Below are positions 19,034 through 35,141 of a stretch of 36,402 nucleotides of DNA, piece after piece. The position numbers were made by a program, and so were the translations under genes. The notes under the pieces are model-generated. The model saw only the letters and a list, made by a program, of their open reading frames with translations. It searched no databases and was not told where the DNA came from. This DNA comes from an uncultured Lentisphaeria bacterium (lineage in GTDB: Bacteria > Verrucomicrobiota > Lentisphaeria > Oligosphaerales > Oligosphaeraceae): positions 1 through 36,402 of the forward strand of contig CALZPA010000005.1 of NCBI GenBank assembly GCA_945827525.1, read 5' to 3'. Within the stretch, counting starts at the first letter, position 1, and each line of letters begins with the position of its first letter.

Positions 19034-20374
19034 TCAGGGCCGCGCGGGGCTGACGCGGAGCTTGTAGACCTGGAGCTCGGCGGGCTGGGGCCAGGGCTCC
19101 GGCCGCGGGCGGTCGCGGTTGGCCGGCAGCGCCTCCCAGCGCATCAGGTAGCGGACGCCGGGCTCGTCGGGGCGGCCGGCGTCGCCGGCAGTCATGAGCC
19201 GCAGCCCGGGGAAGGCGCCGCGGACGCGGCGGACCTCGGCGGGCGTCGGGTCGGGCTGCGGCGGCAGGGTGGCGACGGCGCGGAGCGTCTCGGGGTCGAG
19301 GAGCCAGACGCCGGAGCCGCCGCGGCCGGCGAAGCGCTGGGTGAGCCGTCCGTCCTGCCAGCGCAGCGGCCAGGCGCGGGCCTCGCAGGGGATGCTGCCG
19401 CCGCCGGTGAAGTCCCAGCGCCAGGCCCAGTCGCTGGTCTGGCGGACGCTCCAGCGCCCCTGCTCGAGGCGGGCGTTGTAGATCTGGCTGTGGCCGTCGG
19501 CGTCGTAGCGGTGGTAGGTGATGACGACGCGCCTCTCCTGGTCGAAGCCCATGCAGATGCCCATGTTGATGAGGCCGCCCCTGACGGGGGACGGGTCGAC
19601 GACGAGGCCGGGGGTCCGGATGGTGAGCGGGAGCTCGAGCGGGGTGCCGTCGGCGGTCTCCCAGTGGCGGAGGTCGCGGCTCCGGGCGTAGGAGAGGTCA
19701 TGGTTGGTGTCGCAGCTGGGGGTGTCGCGCCAGACCCAGCAGAGGTGGTACCAGCCGTCGGGGCCGGCCTGCGGGCCGACCAGATAGGCGTTCATCGCGC
19801 CGCCGCCGTCGGTGAGCGGGCGGTCGAGGAGGCGTCGCCAGGTGCGGGTGGCCGTGTCGTAGAGGTTGTAGATCTGGTTGCCGCTGCCGCTGGCGCCGTC
19901 GCGGTAGGTGAAGATGAATTCGCCGCCGGCGCCTCGGAGGAAGATGGGGTATGTGACGCGGGACTCCTGCTCGCCCGTCATCGCGGCGACCCGCTCCAGG
20001 CTGGACAGGTCGCCGGGGCGGCTCATCCGGAAGTAGACGAGGGGCGAGGCGTGCATGTTGCCGGAGACGTGGAGGATCCCGGCGTCGTCCATGGCCATGG
20101 TGACGTAGTTGTGGGAGTCCCAGCCCAGGCGGGAGGGCAGCACGACGCGCTGCCAGCCGCCCTCGGGGTCGAGATCCCGCGCGGCCACGGTCAGGCGCCG
20201 CTCGCCGTCGTAGAACGCCGCGTACTGCCGCCGGCCGCAGGTCAGCAGGGACATCCCCACCTGATGCCCGCTCCACACCGGGCCCAGCCCGGAGCACGAC
20301 AGCACCTCGTCCGCCCCCGCCAGGCCGATGCCCGCCAGGCACGCCATCAGACCGCACATTGCCCTTCTCGCCAT
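19034..20374 (-). CDS. Secreted BNR-4 family protein, PL24/PL25 ulvan lyase-like
   Basis: A predicted exported seven-bladed beta-propeller protein of 446 residues. The start MARRAMCGLMACLAGIGLAGADE is a typical signal peptide, and AGGAAA lies just before the ATG at 20374. The stretch from GWDSHNY (84-90) through LHVSGNMH (101-108) to PLVYFR (111-116) is the hallmark of the BNR-4 family, which includes ulvan and related polysaccharide lyases. His88 and His108, 20 apart, followed by Tyr142 and Arg158 (TYP...TYRDG), occur in the same order as the catalytic residues reported for PL24/PL25 lyases. The substrate cannot be known from sequence; ulvan is not assured. It diverges from the 729-residue secreted protein gene. 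Confidence 0.8.
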   Translation of the reverse strand: MARRAMCGLMACLAGIGLAGADEVLSCSGLGPVWSGHQVGMSLLTCGRRQYAAFYDGERRLTVAARDLDPEGGWQRVVLPSRLGWDSHNYVTMAMDDAGILHVSGNMHASPLVYFRMSRPGDLSSLERVAAMTGEQESRVTYPIFLRGAGGEFIFTYRDGASGSGNQIYNLYDTATRTWRRLLDRPLTDGGGAMNAYLVGPQAGPDGWYHLCWVWRDTPSCDTNHDLSYARSRDLRHWETADGTPLELPLTIRTPGLVVDPSPVRGGLINMGICMGFDQERRVVITYHRYDADGHSQIYNARLEQGRWSVRQTSDWAWRWDFTGGGSIPCEARAWPLRWQDGRLTQRFAGRGGSGVWLLDPETLRAVATLPPQPDPTPAEVRRVRGAFPGLRLMTAGDAGRPDEPGVRYLMRWEALPANRDRPRPEPWPQPAELQVYKLRVSPARP

Positions 20375-20462
20375 TTTCCTGAAGTCTCCCTGCTGTCGCC
20401 TATGCTTGTGTGTGAGTGTGTGGGGGCGGGGCGCGCCGGCCGCCCCTTTGCGCCCCGCCATC

Positions 20463-20537: not shown

Positions 20538-22727
20538 ATGAAGCCGCATCCGCTCCTGTCCCTGTTCGCCGCAGCCGCCCTGCTGCTCCCCCTCGCCGCC
20601 ACCGCCCAGCAGACGCTCGGCGCCGCCACCGCCTACGTCTGGTTCGACCAGCTCGAGCGCCCCTGCGCCCTCGCCGAGGCCCAGCTCGCCGACATCGCCG
20701 CCAGGGTGCGGCGGCGTCTCCTCGACCATGGCGGCGACGGCATCCGCGAATTCGCCGCCACCCTCCCCGACGACCCGTCGCCCCGCGTCGTCTTCGTCAC
20801 CATCGGCGACGACGCCTGGCCGGCCAGGACCTACTTCGGCACCGGCTACTCGTTCGGCGACGCGCTGGGCACCGCCCTGGAGATCCTCGCGGCGAACGAG
20901 CAGGCCAAGCGCGCCGAGGTCGTCAAGCAGGCGACGGCCGTCCTGGAGGAGGCCCAGCGCGAGGGCCGCCCCGTCCCGCGCGAGTGGGCCGCCCGCCGCG
21001 ACGCGCCCGGCGCCTGGCACTGGCTCAAGCTGCACGTCGTCCAGGCCACCAGGACCTACGGCCACTTCACCTTCAACCGCTCGCGCTTCGCCCTGCCCGA
21101 CCTCATCGGCCTCGCCTTCGCCCCCGCGCTCGGCTTCGCCTTCACCCCCGACCAGATCACCGGACGCTATCTCCTCACCCCCAACGGCTTCCTCTCCAGG
21201 AAGCAGGTCGGCAACGTCATCGCCGAGACCTTCAACTTCAACGCCCTCTCCACCTGGCTCGCCCTCTCCAGCATCGACCAGGAGCAGCGCCTCTGCCTCT
21301 TCGAGTCCGACGTCTACTACGCCGACGCCGCCGGCGCCTGCCGCCTCTTCCGCGCCCACCGGCTCCCCGCCATCCCCGACGCGGCCGCCTGCCGCGCCGC
21401 CGCCGCCGCCGTCGCCAGGGCCCTCGCGCCCCACGTCAGCCGCCGCGACGGAACCGTCGAGCCGCCCTTCCCCGACTGGCGGGCCGCCCCCGGGGGCGAG
21501 TCGCACGACGACCTCGCCGAATGCGCCATCGCCCTTCAGGAGCTCGCCAACACCCTCGGCGGCGGCGAGGCCGACGTCCTCCGCGAGCTCGCCGCCACCC
21601 TCGCCCGCCCGCTCCGCGAGGCCATGCTCGACTTCGGCCCCCAGAATGGCCTCCGCGCCCTCGCCGTCCCCGAGCCGCTCCCCGAGGGCTCGCCGCGCCA
21701 GCCCAGGACCATCGCCCCGCTCCGCCACAGCGCCCTTGCCCTCGTCGCCCTCGCCCGCACTGGCCAGCCCGAGGACTCCCGGCTCGCCGCCCGCCTCGCC
21801 GACTTCCTCGCCTCCCTCCACCGGGGCGACGGCACCTTCCACAACGCCGTCACCGTCCCCAAGGCCAGCCCCATCGACTACCCCGAGGCGCAGGCCGCCG
21901 CCCGCCTGACCGACAACGCGCTCGCCGTCGCCGCCCTCGCCGCCGCGGCGTCCGCCGCGCCCGAGGCGAACAAGGCGCAGGAGTGGTCGCGCCTCGCGGC
22001 CCTCGCCCGCACCCGCCTCGCGCACGACTGCGCCGGGCTCCGGGACGCCGACCTCCCCGACGTCACCGCCCTTGCCGCCGCCCTGACCTCCGCCGACCGC
22101 CCCGACGGCCCGCAGCACGACCGCCTCGTCCGGCGCCTGGCCGCGACGCTCATCGCCGCGCGCGACCCGTCGCCGCTGGCGCCCGACCTGGTCGGCGCCC
22201 CGCGCGGCCGCGCCAGCTACCTGGCCGCCGCGCGCGCCGCCTGGGCCGCCTCACGGCTCGCCCTCTGGCTGCGTCCGCAGGCGCCCGAATTCGCCGACGC
22301 CCTCGCCGCCGAGAACGCGCTGCCCACCACCTTCCACCTCCAGGCGCAGCTCGACGACGCCGCCGCGACGCCCCTCCCGCGCCCCAAGAGCTACCGCGGA
22401 CTCTGCCGCACCACGCCCGACGCCTACGAGTTCACCCTGCCCGCCCAGACCTGGCAGATGCGCGCCCTCGCCTGCACCGCCCGGCTGCTCGACGCCTATC
22501 CCGGCGGGCAGTTCCCCGACCTCCCCGCCGCCCAGGCCCAGCTCGACCGCGCCCGGCGCTTCATCGACCTCCACCCCGGCTTCCTCCAGTCCGAGACCAT
22601 CTCCAACCAGCACGGCGTCTCCGAGGAGGCCCGCTCCGCCACCATGGGGCAGCTCTCCAACATCACCGAGTCCAAGGCCTCCCCCAAGGAGGCCGAGCAG
22701 CTCTTCCTCCAGCCCGCCAGACGCTGA
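20538..22727 (+). CDS. Secreted protein of unknown function with helical-toroid-like C-terminal part
   Basis: I do not recognise this 729-residue protein with confidence. Residues 1-24 are a clear signal peptide ending ATA-QQ. The N-terminal third (about 60-290) is mixed alpha/beta; the segment PRVVFVTIGDDAWPARTYFG followed by a helix, and later a GRYLLTPNGFL segment, recalls AMMECR1-type domains, but only weakly. From about residue 300 the protein is alanine- and leucine-rich with repeated helix pairs and phrases such as LALVALARTGQPEDSRLA and FLASLHRGDGTFHNA, as in alpha/alpha-toroid enzymes (epimerases, six-hairpin glycosidases, prenyltransferases). The conserved-looking DGTF turn is typical of these. 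No Shine-Dalgarno is seen. It diverges from the BNR-4 gene and precedes a glycosyltransferase gene by 59 bases. Codons are almost all C-ending. Confidence 0.85.
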   Translation: MKPHPLLSLFAAAALLLPLAATAQQTLGAATAYVWFDQLERPCALAEAQLADIAARVRRRLLDHGGDGIREFAATLPDDPSPRVVFVTIGDDAWPARTYFGTGYSFGDALGTALEILAANEQAKRAEVVKQATAVLEEAQREGRPVPREWAARRDAPGAWHWLKLHVVQATRTYGHFTFNRSRFALPDLIGLAFAPALGFAFTPDQITGRYLLTPNGFLSRKQVGNVIAETFNFNALSTWLALSSIDQEQRLCLFESDVYYADAAGACRLFRAHRLPAIPDAAACRAAAAAVARALAPHVSRRDGTVEPPFPDWRAAPGGESHDDLAECAIALQELANTLGGGEADVLRELAATLARPLREAMLDFGPQNGLRALAVPEPLPEGSPRQPRTIAPLRHSALALVALARTGQPEDSRLAARLADFLASLHRGDGTFHNAVTVPKASPIDYPEAQAAARLTDNALAVAALAAAASAAPEANKAQEWSRLAALARTRLAHDCAGLRDADLPDVTALAAALTSADRPDGPQHDRLVRRLAATLIAARDPSPLAPDLVGAPRGRASYLAAARAAWAASRLALWLRPQAPEFADALAAENALPTTFHLQAQLDDAAATPLPRPKSYRGLCRTTPDAYEFTLPAQTWQMRALACTARLLDAYPGGQFPDLPAAQAQLDRARRFIDLHPGFLQSETISNQHGVSEEARSATMGQLSNITESKASPKEAEQLFLQPARR

Positions 22728-22786: not shown

Positions 22787-23941
22787 ATGAAAGTCGACTC
22801 CCCCCACATCGATGTGCTGCATGTCACCGAAGCCTGCGGCGGAGGCGTCAGCAGGCACATCCGGCTCATCGTGCCGGAGCTGCAGGCCAGCGGCGTCCGC
22901 TGCGCCGTCTGCGGCTTCGGGCAGCGCGTCGAGGAGAACTTCCTCAACGACCTGACGCTCTTCGGCCAGGCCGGCATCCAGACCGAGTTCTGGCCGTTCA
23001 ACCACGGCAACGCGCTGGGCACCGCCGCGTTCATCCTCCACCTCCGCCGGCTGCTGCGCGACTGGCGCCCCGCCATCATCCACGCGCACGCCACGCTGGC
23101 CGGGCTCGCCTGCCGCGTCGCGCGCGACGCCCTCCCCGGCGTGCGCGTCGTCTACTCCCCGCACGCCTTCGCCCTCCATCCCTCGCTGCCCTGGCACCTC
23201 CGCAACGCCATCCGACTCCTCGAGACCTGGGCCGCGCACCGCACCGACGCCTACGCCTTCGTCGGACGCTCCGAGATCGAGGACGCCAACGCCATCCGGC
23301 TCCCCGCCAACAAATTCCACCTCATCGAGAACGGGCTGCCCCAGACCTACCCCGACAGGCTCTACACCCGCGAGGACGCCCGCAAGGCGCTCAATCTCCC
23401 GCGCGACGGGCGCTTCGCCGTCATCCCCTGCCGGCTCGTCCGCCAGAAGGGACTCGACCAGGTCCTCCACGCCATCACCAGGCTCGGCCCCGAGTGCTCC
23501 GACATCCAGTTCATGTTCTGCGGCGTCGGCCCCGAGCGCGACCTTCTCCTCTCCATCGCCGGACAGCTCGGCATCGCCTCGCGCACCCACTTCCCCGGCA
23601 CCATCGACCGCCTCGACGTCCTCCTCCCCGCATTCGACATGGCCATCCTCCCCTCCCTCTACGAGGGCCTCTCCTACGTCCTCCTCGAGTCCCTCGCCGC
23701 CGGCATCCCCCTCATCGTCTCCGACATCCTCGCCAACGTCCCACGCCCCGAGCTCCGCGACATCCTCAACACCTTCACCGTCGGCGACTGCGACGAGCTC
23801 GCCGCGCAGATCGCGCTCGTCGCCGGCGACCCGCAGCGCACCCAGGCGCGCGCCAGCCTCGGCGCCGCCTACATGCGGCAGAACTTCCGCCTCTCCTCCC
23901 AGATCCAGAAGCTCTCGAACCTCTACCGCTTCCTCCAGTGA
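22787..23941 (+). CDS. GT4-family glycosyltransferase
   Basis: A retaining GT-B glycosyltransferase of 384 residues, probably using a nucleotide sugar to build a cell-surface polysaccharide, in the cytoplasm. The N-terminal domain has VTEACGGGVSRHIR (glycine-rich acceptor loop) and IIHAHATLAGLACR; the C-terminal Glycos_transf_1 domain has CRLVRQKGLDQVL, FCGVGPERDLL and PSLYEGLSYVLLESLAAGIP with the E-x7-E type motif. Donor and acceptor are unknown. The leader is CA/C-rich with no Shine-Dalgarno. It ends 18 bases from the convergent FAD oxidoreductase gene. Confidence 0.93.
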   Translation: MKVDSPHIDVLHVTEACGGGVSRHIRLIVPELQASGVRCAVCGFGQRVEENFLNDLTLFGQAGIQTEFWPFNHGNALGTAAFILHLRRLLRDWRPAIIHAHATLAGLACRVARDALPGVRVVYSPHAFALHPSLPWHLRNAIRLLETWAAHRTDAYAFVGRSEIEDANAIRLPANKFHLIENGLPQTYPDRLYTREDARKALNLPRDGRFAVIPCRLVRQKGLDQVLHAITRLGPECSDIQFMFCGVGPERDLLLSIAGQLGIASRTHFPGTIDRLDVLLPAFDMAILPSLYEGLSYVLLESLAAGIPLIVSDILANVPRPELRDILNTFTVGDCDELAAQIALVAGDPQRTQARASLGAAYMRQNFRLSSQIQKLSNLYRFLQ

Positions 23942-26446: not shown

Positions 26447-28660
26447 TCAGACGCGCTCCAGCAGGTACACGGCCGACACGCAGTCCGCCCACGGCAGCTC
26501 GTTCGTCCACAGCCCGTAGACGCCCAGCACGTCGCCGGGGAAGACGAGGCCCGTGTCCTGGCCGTTGACGGTCAGGCGGTAGGAGGCCTCGGGGTCCAGG
26601 CCCGGCACGCGGAGGCGCGTCTGGCGGGCGATGTAGCCGACCTTGGTGCGGCGGACGGCCGTCAGGACGGCCTGCGACCGGTCCTTCGCGACGGCGCACC
26701 AGGCCTCGACGTCGTTCTCGCGGAACATGTCGGTGAGGCGGTAGTAGTCGCCCTCGGAGATGGTGTCGTGGTAGCGGTGGTAGCTGGCGTTGAGGCGGAT
26801 GGCGGTCTGGCGCTCCTCCTCGGTGAGCCTGGTCAGGTCGAGCTCGTAGCCGAAGGTGCCGGCCATGGCGACGTTGCCGCGCGTCTCGAACGGGATGAGG
26901 CGCCAGGGCTGGTGCTGCGCGTTGACGTGGGCGCCCATGCTGGCGACGGGATAGAAGAGCGAGGTGCCGGCCTGGATGGCGAGGCGGTCCATCGCGTCGG
27001 TGTTGTCGCTGCACCAGATCTGGGGCAGGTAGTAGAGCATGCCGGCGTCGAAGCGCCCGCCGCCGCCGGAGCAGCCCTCGATGAGCAGCTCGGGGAATTC
27101 GGCGATGAGCATCTCGTGGAGGCGGTAGACGCCGAGGATGTAGCGGTGGGCGACCTCGCCCTGGCGCTCGGGCGGGAGGGCCGCCGAGAAGACCTCGGTC
27201 ATGTTGCGGTTCATGTCCCACTTGATGTAGTCGATGCGCGCCTTGCGGATCATGGCCGACATGACGTCGAACAGGTGCCGGACGACCTCCTCGCGGCTGA
27301 AGTCGAGGATGAGCTGGGTGCGGCCGTAGCTGCGGGGGCGCCCCGGCACGCAGAGCACCCAGTCGGGATGCGCCCGGTACAGCTCGCTGTCCTCCGAGAT
27401 CATCTCCGGCTCGTACCAGAGGCCGAACTTCAGCCCCAGCCCGTGGATGGCGCCGGCCAGCTCCGCCATGTCGCCCACCTTCGACTCGAACTCGAACCAG
27501 TCGCCCAGCGACGTGCGGTCGTCGTCGCGGTGCCCGAACCAGCCGTCGTCCAGCACCAGCATCTCGATGTTCAGCTTCGCCGCCGCCGCCGCGATGTCGA
27601 TGATCTTCCGGCTGTCGAACCTGAAGTACGTCGCCTCCCAGTTGTTCACCAGGATGGGGCGCTGGCGGCCGTTCCACGGGCTGCGGATGATGTGCCCGCG
27701 GATGAAGTCGTGCAGGTGGCGCGACATCGCGCCGAAGCCCGACTCCGACACCGTCATGAACATCTCCGGCGTCTCGAACGACTCGCCCGGCTCCAGGCGC
27801 CACGCGAACAGCTCCGGGTTGATGCCCACCTGCACCCGCACGCCGCCGAACTGCTCCACCTCCGCCGACTCCCAGTGGTTGCCGCTGTACGCCAGGCAGA
27901 ACGCATACGCCTCGCCCGCCTCCTCCGTCGTCTCCGGCGCGCACAGCACGATGCCGGGCGTCTGCACGTGGCCCGTCGCGCCGCGCAGGCTCGACGACGC
28001 CTGCAGGCCCGTGTGCAGCGCCGTCCGCTGCAGATGCCGCTCCCGAGACCAGCTCCCCGACGTGCACACCATCTCGTAGTCCGCCTTGCCCACCAGGTCA
28101 ATCTGCGCGCTCATCGCGCGCTCCAGCGTCAGCGCCTGGCCCGAGACGTTCCGGACCACCACCGACCGGGCGATGACGTCGCACTCCGCGAACACCGTGT
28201 ACAGCAGCGTCACCTCGACGCCAGCATACGGGTCCGACAGCCGCAGCGACAGCTGCTCGCACGACTCAGCCGCCCTGCCCGGGAACGACTGCGGCAGCCC
28301 GTGCAGCGGCGCCTTCGACCCGCGCGTCACCTCGTGCGAGACGTAGCGCGGGTCGCACCACCTCGCGCCGTCCGCCGTCCGCAGCGACAGCGCCGGCAGA
28401 CGCATGTCGCCGCTGTTGCAGCCGCCGTACTCCTGCGGCAGCTGGTCCGGCGTCGCGTTCCCCGGGTCGTCCTGATGACGCGGGTTGAACGACGCGGGCG
28501 ACGGGTTGAACACCCGCTCCGCCACCATCTCCGGACAGCGCATCGCGCCGCCGTAGAAGTAGTGCTGGAGACGCCCAGCTCTGTTCAGGCCAAACACATA
28601 CGACGTCCCCGACGTCCGCAGGTGGAACATCCTGCCTTCGCGCAACACTTCAATCGACAT
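26447..28660 (-). CDS. GH36 alpha-galactosidase
   Basis: Retaining hydrolase that removes terminal alpha-galactose from raffinose-type oligosaccharides, galactomannans or glycans. The 737 residues match GH36 subgroup I length (about 730). They consist of an N-terminal beta-supersandwich, a TIM barrel starting near RPILVNNWEATYF (334-346) with LDDGWFG (370-376), nucleophile Asp482 in YIKWDMNR, acid/base Asp552 in CSDNTDA and the conserved EGCSGGGGRFD (528-538), and a C-terminal beta domain. No signal peptide is present, so it is probably cytoplasmic. It leads a two-gene unit with rnhC and has a long structured leader. Codons are G-ending in the 5' half and C-ending in the 3' half. Confidence 0.96.
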   Translation of the reverse strand: MSIEVLREGRMFHLRTSGTSYVFGLNRAGRLQHYFYGGAMRCPEMVAERVFNPSPASFNPRHQDDPGNATPDQLPQEYGGCNSGDMRLPALSLRTADGARWCDPRYVSHEVTRGSKAPLHGLPQSFPGRAAESCEQLSLRLSDPYAGVEVTLLYTVFAECDVIARSVVVRNVSGQALTLERAMSAQIDLVGKADYEMVCTSGSWSRERHLQRTALHTGLQASSSLRGATGHVQTPGIVLCAPETTEEAGEAYAFCLAYSGNHWESAEVEQFGGVRVQVGINPELFAWRLEPGESFETPEMFMTVSESGFGAMSRHLHDFIRGHIIRSPWNGRQRPILVNNWEATYFRFDSRKIIDIAAAAAKLNIEMLVLDDGWFGHRDDDRTSLGDWFEFESKVGDMAELAGAIHGLGLKFGLWYEPEMISEDSELYRAHPDWVLCVPGRPRSYGRTQLILDFSREEVVRHLFDVMSAMIRKARIDYIKWDMNRNMTEVFSAALPPERQGEVAHRYILGVYRLHEMLIAEFPELLIEGCSGGGGRFDAGMLYYLPQIWCSDNTDAMDRLAIQAGTSLFYPVASMGAHVNAQHQPWRLIPFETRGNVAMAGTFGYELDLTRLTEEERQTAIRLNASYHRYHDTISEGDYYRLTDMFRENDVEAWCAVAKDRSQAVLTAVRRTKVGYIARQTRLRVPGLDPEASYRLTVNGQDTGLVFPGDVLGVYGLWTNELPWADCVSAVYLLERV

Positions 28661-32753: not shown

Positions 32754-35141
32754 ATGCCCCTTCCCGCCGCCATCCGCCCCCTCCCCCTGCTGGGCCTGCT
32801 CGCCGCCGTCGCCCTCCTCGCAGGCTGCCGGACCGCCCCCGTGCCCCCCGGCTTCGCCCGCGTCGGCGCCGTCCTCCAGAGCCAGACCTCCGACATCGCC
32901 TCGCCGGCCGCCATCTACTCCCTCATGCAGTGGTACGCCGAGACGACCGAACGCAAGGAGGTCCCCCCCGAATGGCGCGAATTCGCCGACCGCAGCCGCG
33001 CCCGCGCCCTCGAGGAGCTCCACCTCCAGTGGCGCGCCCGGCTCATCGGCCAGGGACACGGACTCGCCATCGCCCATGACGCCGACTTCCTCGCCCTCCT
33101 CCCCGAGACGCTCGCCAGCCGCACCGACTGGGACGCCATGACCGCACAGACCCACAGCCTCAGCGTCCTCGTCGCCGCCCCACAGACCATCGACATCCCA
33201 CTCGCCGAGTGCGAGTCCATGTCCTTCTGGGAACGTCGCCCGCAGGACCGGCAGGCCTTCGCCGCCTGGGCGCGCCAGCGCCGGACACTCACCCTCCCCG
33301 ACCCGCCCGGACTCCGACGCCTCGACCTCATCCGGCAGCTCGACGCCATCCACGCCGCCATCGCCCTCAAGCGCCACATCCTCGCCATCCGCGACGACGC
33401 CGACCGCAGACGCGACGCACACCAGTTCACCGCCGCCCTCGACCTCCTCGGAAAGCTCCGCGCCGAACTCGACGCCAAGGGCCAGAGCCTCGACGCCATC
33501 GGCGACACCGCCACCCGCGAGCAGCTCGACGCCACCCTCGCGTTCCTCCCCACCCAGGCCATCACCTTCCACCTCGACCGCCTCCGCGGCACCTTCGCCA
33601 CCCTCGCCGCACAGCCCGACGCCTCCGACGACGCCATCGCCGACGCCGAGCGCAGCCTCACCGCCACCCTCGCCGAATGGCAGGCCGACCCACGCTACCA
33701 GGACGCGCTCCGAACCCTCCTCCCCCTCGCGAGGAAAACCCTCCGGACCGCCGCCGACGCCCGAACCGCCGCCTGGAGACGCCAGCTCGACGCCCTCGCC
33801 AGACAGCGACGCTACTGGGACGCTTCCGAACTCTGCCGGCAGCTCCTCCCCCAGCTCGCCACCCGCGGACACCAGCAGTTCGGGGCCTACGCCGCCATCG
33901 CCGCCGACGAGCAGCAGGAGGCCTCCTTCGCCACCCTCCTCGCCGACGCCCTCCGCTCCCACGCCAGCGCCTTCCTCCCACAGGCGCTCCGGCACTTCGC
34001 CGACGCCGCCGAACGCAGCCTCGCCAACGGCAAGCCCGGCTTCGCCGCCGCACTCGGACGCATGGCCGACGACATGCGCAGCACCCTCCACCCCAACCCC
34101 TCCCCAGACCTCGACGCCCACGCCGCTCCACTCCGAAAACTCGCCGAACAGGCCGTCGCCTCCATCACCGCACACGTCCTCCGGCGAACCGTCACCGTCT
34201 CCGACATGACCTCCTCCATCCCCGGAAGCGGACTCACCTACACCCGCGACCTCATCCACGCACTCCGGGGACTCCTCGAGGAACGCCAGCTCGACGCCCT
34301 CATCTCCATCAGCCCACCCACCGGCGAGCAGCCTTCGCCCTACGCCTACTCCCTCTTCAACGGCGTCGTCGCCGACTTCGACGGCACCGAGACCGTCGAA
34401 CGACGCAACTCACGCATCATCCGACGCTTCGGCGAAATCCGCAAGTCCGACAACCCACAGGCGCAGGACAACCCCGAGGCCCCCAAGAACATCTACACCC
34501 AGGAGGTCTACGAGCAGCTCATCAGCATCCGCGAAATCGAGCGCCTCGCCCACGTCCGCGCCTTCATCACCATGCGCGGCCCAGGCTTCTCCACCCTCGT
34601 CGAGGTCAACGAATTCTACAAGCGGCAGTTCATCATCGAGGAGTCGCACCCCTTCAACGACCTCCGCGTCATCGACGTCCTCCGAACCTACGACCTCGAC
34701 AAGCACCCCGTCCAGGACGCCGAGCCCGTCCTCCGCTACGACCGCGTCTGGACCCCAGGCGAAATGCTCGACTGGGCGCGCAAGGACTCGCTCAAGGTCT
34801 TCACCCTCAAAATCCTCTTCCACCTCAACCAGTTCCCCTTCATGCTCGCCAACCAGGCACGGCACTTCGCCGATGCCGGCGACCTCGTCGAGGCCACCGA
34901 ATTCTGGGCCTGCTGCGCCGAGCTCACACGGCTCCTCGACCCCCGAAAGCTCACCACCTCCGGACTCGACCAGACCTCACGCTCCTCGGCCAGCTGCTAC
35001 GAGGACTGCCTCGCCGCCCTCCAGCGCCAGTACGCCGAACTCGCCGCCCTCGTCCGAACCGCGCCCGCCGACATGGCCCGAACCGCCAACGCCCTCTTCG
35101 TCCGCGACGCCACCCCCAAAGCCGCATCCAACACCCCCTGA
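32754..35141 (+). CDS. Large lipoprotein of unknown function
   Basis: I do not recognise this 795-residue protein. It begins with a lipoprotein signal peptide, hydrophobic core PLLGLLAAVALLAGC, lipobox LLAGC with Cys25, followed by RTAP. With no Asp at +2, outer-membrane retention is plausible. The middle (about 60-480) is strongly helical, rich in Ala, Arg, Leu and Asp and compatible with helical repeats or coiled coils. The last third is more mixed, with conserved-looking blocks such as FITMRGPGFSTLVEVNEF and WTPGEMLDWARKDSLKVFTL. No catalytic motif is apparent. There is no Shine-Dalgarno; it follows the second cyclophilin gene by 23 bases, so co-transcription is likely, and a link to envelope folding is only a guess. 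Confidence 0.88.
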   Translation: MPLPAAIRPLPLLGLLAAVALLAGCRTAPVPPGFARVGAVLQSQTSDIASPAAIYSLMQWYAETTERKEVPPEWREFADRSRARALEELHLQWRARLIGQGHGLAIAHDADFLALLPETLASRTDWDAMTAQTHSLSVLVAAPQTIDIPLAECESMSFWERRPQDRQAFAAWARQRRTLTLPDPPGLRRLDLIRQLDAIHAAIALKRHILAIRDDADRRRDAHQFTAALDLLGKLRAELDAKGQSLDAIGDTATREQLDATLAFLPTQAITFHLDRLRGTFATLAAQPDASDDAIADAERSLTATLAEWQADPRYQDALRTLLPLARKTLRTAADARTAAWRRQLDALARQRRYWDASELCRQLLPQLATRGHQQFGAYAAIAADEQQEASFATLLADALRSHASAFLPQALRHFADAAERSLANGKPGFAAALGRMADDMRSTLHPNPSPDLDAHAAPLRKLAEQAVASITAHVLRRTVTVSDMTSSIPGSGLTYTRDLIHALRGLLEERQLDALISISPPTGEQPSPYAYSLFNGVVADFDGTETVERRNSRIIRRFGEIRKSDNPQAQDNPEAPKNIYTQEVYEQLISIREIERLAHVRAFITMRGPGFSTLVEVNEFYKRQFIIEESHPFNDLRVIDVLRTYDLDKHPVQDAEPVLRYDRVWTPGEMLDWARKDSLKVFTLKILFHLNQFPFMLANQARHFADAGDLVEATEFWACCAELTRLLDPRKLTTSGLDQTSRSSASCYEDCLAALQRQYAELAALVRTAPADMARTANALFVRDATPKAASNTP

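Follow-up and report, generated by a model that had tools for sequence, protein, structure and literature searches.

What kind of protein is encoded at positions 20,538 to 22,727 of the window, i.e. the whole 36,402-nucleotide stretch of DNA from an uncultured Lentisphaeria bacterium analysed here, and what could such a protein do? The initial annotation had suggested an exported protein whose N-terminal part weakly recalls AMMECR1-like domains and whose remainder resembles an alpha/alpha toroid, possibly an enzyme acting on the product of the neighbouring gene. The following features, all on the plus strand, were assigned.

20538..22727, +: gene of the putatively exported AMMECR1-like/toroid protein, ATG at 20538, 729 aa (open reading frame, homologues and model)
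20538..20612, +: predicted signal peptide, approximately residues 1-25 (sequence pattern)
20628..21362, +: AMMECR1-fold domain, residues ~31-275 (AlphaFold of this part alone, Foldseek, VIA)
21369..22514, +: (alpha/alpha)6 toroid domain, residues ~278-659 (AlphaFold model, structure comparison)
22584..22724, +: low-confidence C-terminal tail, residues 683-729 (pLDDT < 50 in AlphaFold)
22787..23941, +: GT4 glycosyltransferase gene, immediately downstream on the same strand (neighbour search)

Reading frame and fold of the protein

The frame at 20538-22727 is real and protein-coding, as indicated by the codon-position G+C of the gene (0.75/0.55/0.97), by its homologues and by the dN/dS values of relatives. 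In 10 pairs, composed of relatives only, the window protein having no close relative for such a test, dN/dS amounted to 0.04-0.27, with purifying selection on both domains. Mechanically the frame opens at 20328; we placed the start at 20538 because from there a signal-peptide pattern arises, ending between ATA and QQ as read from the sequence itself. Most of the full-length relatives compared also have hydrophobic N-termini. On this pattern the protein is predicted to be exported, in agreement with the initial annotation.

Sequence comparisons of the single protein gave no match: at E≤1 no Pfam or NCBIfam family was found, phmmer against PDB returned nothing, and PF01871, the AMMECR1 family, was matched neither by the window protein at E≤1 nor by any member in the tally of 38. 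The family profile searched against PDB sequences gave weak toroid matches only (best E 0.076), and for the N-terminal part chance matches. An hhalign comparison of the family with AMMECR1 sequences of the relatives (24 of 29; the other five showed in-frame stops in the stretch retrieved and were left out) was not significant, though the expected strand was aligned.

The structural evidence is of a different kind. AlphaFold modelling and structure searches of both parts, the check proposed together with the initial annotation, returned an AMMECR1 fold and an (alpha/alpha)6 toroid. The model of the full protein, based on 18 sequences, has a two-part architecture (pLDDT 83.6, pTM 0.82), and the N-terminal part modelled alone (residues 31-281) reached pLDDT 89.7 and pTM 0.87. 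For the latter the four top Foldseek matches, 1zq7_A, 1zq7_B, 1vaj and 1wsc_B, with E of 1e-5 to 1e-4, were the only ones below 1e-3, the next, unrelated one standing at 0.096. VIA gave Z of 11.0 for 1VAJ (179 residues, rmsd 3.8), then 8.4 and 6.4 for the three AMMECR1 entries, and no other fold above Z 5.3, which is no proof of absence. As a control, the genuine AMMECR1 of a relative, scoring over the PF01871 cut-off, found by sequence exactly 1VAJ, 1ZQ7 and 1WSC in PDB (E 1.7e-27 to 1.1e-22). The AMMECR1 fold of the N-terminal domain is therefore assigned because its best structural matches are the very entries found by a genuine AMMECR1 sequence; the likeness proposed earlier is borne out by fold, not by sequence. 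Besides the missing PF01871 match, the window protein differs from AMMECR1 in being fused to a toroid and predictably exported, and in carrying RTYFG for RGCIG. The RGCIG motif with its cysteine is a hallmark of AMMECR1, and it is seen in a Memo-AMMECR1 protein encoded next to the family gene in genome G031. In the family position 99 is tyrosine in 23 and cysteine in 2 of 38 members, the correspondence of the two motifs being a sequence pattern.

The anticipated toroid was likewise found. Residues 278-659 superpose on relatives of cellobiose 2-epimerase with Z up to 28.7 (324 residues, rmsd 3.4), but with 10% identity, without a sequence-family match and with the AMMECR1-like domain fused in the window protein. 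Epimerases, GH76 and GH105 enzymes are among the best structural matches. With regard to N-acylglucosamine 2-epimerase, GH88, GH76 and GH127 toroid enzymes, the window protein shares the fold but matches none of the family sequence profiles; some of its relatives weakly match PL2, GH127 and GH88 in Pfam (best 7.6e-06). In the open-licence PMC literature we found no report of an AMMECR1/toroid protein. The composition had been called new, which holds in so far as family models are lacking, though homologues form a broad family.

Distribution and gene neighbourhood in Oligosphaerales

With the single protein as a query, homologues were found in 41 of 98 genomes, the window's own included, that is in 41 of 47 genomes of its own order, and in none of 51 from other orders of the class. 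The six genomes of the order lacking a match (G008, G011, G016, G033, G039 and G042) have completeness of 68-88%; the named relatives with the family protein include Oligosphaera ethanolica DSM 24202 and an Oligosphaeraceae MAG, so that the window falls within Oligosphaeraceae or close to it. The 38-member profile matched 42 of 387 genomes of the phylum: 22 of the same order, genome G060 of the same class, matched over the full length, and 19 others with only short, weak matches to the toroid part.

Six of the 41 loci, namely the window and five loci of one other genus (genera g1 and g8), have the GT4 gene directly after the family gene on the same strand. It is found on the opposite strand in L023 and upstream in L053, with weaker, more distant matches in L025 and L026. 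In six loci of two other families (L040, L041, L043, L044, L045, L050) a membrane protein of ~550 aa or more is encoded directly upstream; the two that were tested match an ABC-permease family in Pfam. A semialdehyde-dehydrogenase gene (asd) stands upstream in eight loci (Pfam was tested on one, which also carries an HSP90 gene), and an amidohydrolase gene is near in four (tested on one). No arrangement is universal, several loci being too short to judge, and an operon explanation was rejected because the neighbours differ by clade. We recognised no adhesin gene beside the Oligosphaerales family genes, the window included.

Genes adjoining the one under study in the window encode BNR_4, GT4, FAD oxidoreductase, Rpb6/omega-like and M24 peptidase proteins and other ordinary products, some of these gene calls coming from a home-made codon score rather than a gene finder. 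The BNR_4 protein (19034-20461, minus strand) shows a relationship to alpha-L-rhamnosidase BT3686, though scoring under the curated cut-off. As a functional partner it was discarded, since it adjoins the family gene in 1 of 41 loci, the window itself, which also speaks against the proposed enzyme acting on the neighbour's product. Elsewhere in the window a GH36-type alpha-galactosidase (Melibiase; 26450-28570, minus strand) and a 795-aa protein with a lipoprotein-like signal start and no Pfam match at E≤0.01 (32754-35138, plus strand) are encoded. In G031 an apparently exported Memo-AMMECR1 fusion (PF01875 + PF01871; L042 6522-8108, minus strand) is divergent from the family gene, and several other AMMECR1 frames in the order start with signal-like stretches.

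The wider family and the toroid pocket

The G060 protein (L129 334-3210, 959 aa) contains both domains and matches the family profile with E of 4e-81; it differs in that its N-terminal stretch, judged by eye, carries several hydrophobic segments in place of a signal peptide. A tblastn search with its soluble part found 53 plasmid records with E down to 1e-28, and one with the protein of locus L138 found 54 plasmid and 8 phage records. Searched alone against the 387 genomes of the phylum, the L138 protein matched 7, G060 best, and did not find the window gene; the link therefore needs the profile. The family profile matched all 5 adhesin-linked proteins tested (2e-19 to 6e-11), and hhalign of the family against nine of them gave a probability of 99.5% and E of 4.4e-23 over profile columns 68-623, spanning both domains. 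By these profile comparisons, the window protein is homologous over both domains to the adhesin-linked GtfC-type family, whose plasmid-encoded members carry the two domains in the same order.

Members of this wider family are annotated as 'hypothetical' or 'poly(glycerol-phosphate) alpha-glucosyltransferase' and have no signal peptide. Of nine loci that carry annotation, seven encode close to the relative a protein labelled as adhesin, clumping factor, Bap-like or T1SS target, and the partners are type I secretion, GT4, Mur-ligase or ATP-grasp proteins. The Klebsiella aerogenes locus has T1SS and 'clumping factor' genes, and in its relative the module is joined to a GT4 domain that most resembles SdgB. 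In Staphylococcus epidermidis there is an SdrD-like adhesin with a convergent glycosyltransferase. Agrobacterium has BapA-like adhesins with T1SS; here one strain has the relative fused to ATP-grasp domains, while in another it bears a Mur ligase family annotation. A large T1SS-target protein is encoded in the Acinetobacter locus, a BapA-like protein in Sulfitobacter and an 'adhesive domain-containing protein' in Enterococcus gilvus. The eighth locus, of Nitratireductor, comprises T1SS genes, a large hypothetical protein and a Mur ligase; in the ninth, on S. aureus plasmid pWBG759, a Mur ligase adjoins and no adhesin is annotated in the stretch shown. Stretches from Variovorax and Rhizobium carry no annotation and stand outside these nine. 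The module is also seen fused or adjacent to GT4, cyanophycin-synthetase-like ATP-grasp or Mur ligase beside T1SS adhesins in L137 8998-12132, L141 7407-12389 and L138 10739-12160. It is possible that the AMMECR1-like/toroid module and its GT4, ATP-grasp or Mur-ligase partners form an adhesin-modification system with several chemistries.

The experimentally studied protein in this setting is GtfC of S. aureus (SACOL0051, UniProt Q5HJU6), which the passages of PMC5230774 dealing with it describe as a 538-aa product encoded immediately downstream of pls, with a convergent glycosyltransferase gene. According to the same passages, GtfC is not a CAZy glycosyltransferase, is similar to the S. epidermidis 'poly(glycerol-phosphate) alpha-glucosyltransferase', and is needed for full glycosylation of the adhesin Pls, working with the glycosyltransferase GtfD on its SD repeats; with the genes of strain COL GtfD alone gave weak glycosylation, while with those of strain 1061 both GtfC and GtfD were needed (PMC5230774). 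Locus L139 encodes a protein of 538 aa with the 'poly(glycerol-phosphate) alpha-glucosyltransferase' annotation, with an SdrD-like adhesin upstream and a convergent glycosyltransferase. By this likeness of length, annotation and gene order to what these passages describe, GtfC probably belongs to the AMMECR1-like/toroid family.

The adhesin-linked proteins lack a signal peptide, are for the most part encoded next to adhesin genes and have a polar pocket in common, whereas the branch of the window is predicted to be exported, has no adhesin neighbour and has lost the pocket. The nine adhesin-linked proteins share 41 invariant polar columns in the toroid, of which G060 keeps 24 and the window 2; a single one persists in at least half of the 38 family members, as against 8 of 22 nonpolar invariant columns. 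These counts were the same in three alignment modes, although residue-by-residue alignment of such distant toroids is uncertain. In a narrower residue set, 23 of 37 invariant polar columns fall close to where the six presumed inner helices begin (near residues 323, 395, 453, 509, 561 and 634 of the model), in zones making up 22% of the toroid; as the zones were chosen after viewing the alignment, the P value of this enrichment is only a guide. The exported branch has thus lost nearly all ancestral polar toroid residues near inner-helix starts, which again tells against the suggested action on the neighbour's product.

This branch has a conserved set of its own, which includes E377, Q427, D550, Q602, R624 and Q637, and E328, E379, D550, R624 and Q637 are highly conserved in it, so the altered pocket may still be catalytic. 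The window copy departs from branch-conserved residues at E377, N398, Q427, W511 and D625, among others. It keeps 39 of 58 conserved toroid columns, fewer than any of the 22 other members in that comparison, which is a further point against the suggested enzyme, whereas in the N-terminal domain it keeps a normal 48 of 52; when all 38 are compared, the window ranks ninth lowest for toroid conservation.

Possible function of the exported branch

The reading we favour, tentatively and at somewhat below even chances, is that the window protein represents an exported, Oligosphaerales-specific branch of the AMMECR1-like plus (alpha/alpha)6 toroid family, serving as a glycan- or glycoprotein-binding or otherwise remodelled accessory factor in the assembly of the envelope or of surface glycoproteins. 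Members without a signal peptide would probably help to modify large adhesins after translation, as accessory factors or as enzymes. In Oligosphaerales the signal peptide would send the protein out of the cytoplasm, the ancestral polar pocket of its toroid would be replaced, and the protein might then bind a glycan or glycoprotein, or act in remodelled form, as an accessory factor building the cell envelope or surface glycoproteins. Such a role is, in our view, the likeliest, with binding or accessory activity rather than that of a classical toroid enzyme; the GtfC link, the compartment and the accessory role are all deduced. In some genera the exported protein may act together with the product of the adjacent GT4. 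GT4 enzymes are normally cytoplasmic, and a direct complex is unlikely because the family copy is exported. Against the favoured reading stand the confinement of GT4 adjacency to few genera, other clades having the asd, amidohydrolase or ABC-permease-like gene instead, the lack of a recognised adhesin beside the Oligosphaerales genes, and the only partial retention of nonpolar columns (8 of 22) as well.

An exported enzyme is a rather doubtful alternative, in which envelope or environmental polysaccharides would be substrates of the toroid, as a glycoside hydrolase, epimerase or lyase whose active site is new, and the AMMECR1-like domain would position them. The epimerase, GH76 and GH105 structures among the best toroid matches, the weak Pfam matches of some members, the conserved E328, E379, D550 and Q637 and the signal peptide all agree with it, yet toroids of any function give such fold matches, the window protein fits no known family profile, and the ancestral polar set is nearly gone. 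Moreover, the window copy lacks three residues conserved among the 38 members, namely E377 (present in 35), W511 (33) and D625 (31). The loss of the pocket would also suit a structural or scaffold periplasmic protein, a pseudoenzyme with no small-molecule or glycan ligand serving, e.g., as a platform for assembling secreted proteins, and so would its retention through the order while tied to no single conserved operon. We consider this unlikely, since a new polar residue set is conserved and, in close pairs, the toroid is constrained about as strongly as the N-terminal domain. It is highly improbable that the protein takes part in an AmmeMemoRadiSam-type system, in which a metal- or radical-linked modification would be carried out jointly by an exported AMMECR1-like protein and exported Memo-AMMECR1 proteins: the divergent Memo-AMMECR1 gene of G031 and the genuine AMMECR1 carried by 36 of 40 relatives searched point that way, but only the G031 locus among 41 shows the adjacency, tyrosine mostly stands where RGCIG has its cysteine, and PF01871 is not matched.

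Returning to the envelope-factor reading, its broader form is possible, though we hold it with less assurance: GtfC-type proteins, filed as alpha-glucosyltransferases, would not be glycosyltransferases but AMMECR1-fold/toroid proteins modifying giant adhesins with GT4, Mur-ligase or ATP-grasp partners, and in one order this machinery would have given rise to an envelope factor that is exported, widely retained and equipped with a new pocket. With these results, a protein retained across almost the whole of one bacterial order can be assigned to a fold and a family. The homology further suggests that GtfC, which according to the cited passages has a genetic role in adhesin glycosylation and is no CAZy glycosyltransferase, is itself an AMMECR1-like/toroid protein; if so, its role in adhesin modification, and with it the function of AMMECR1 folds at large, would become directly testable.
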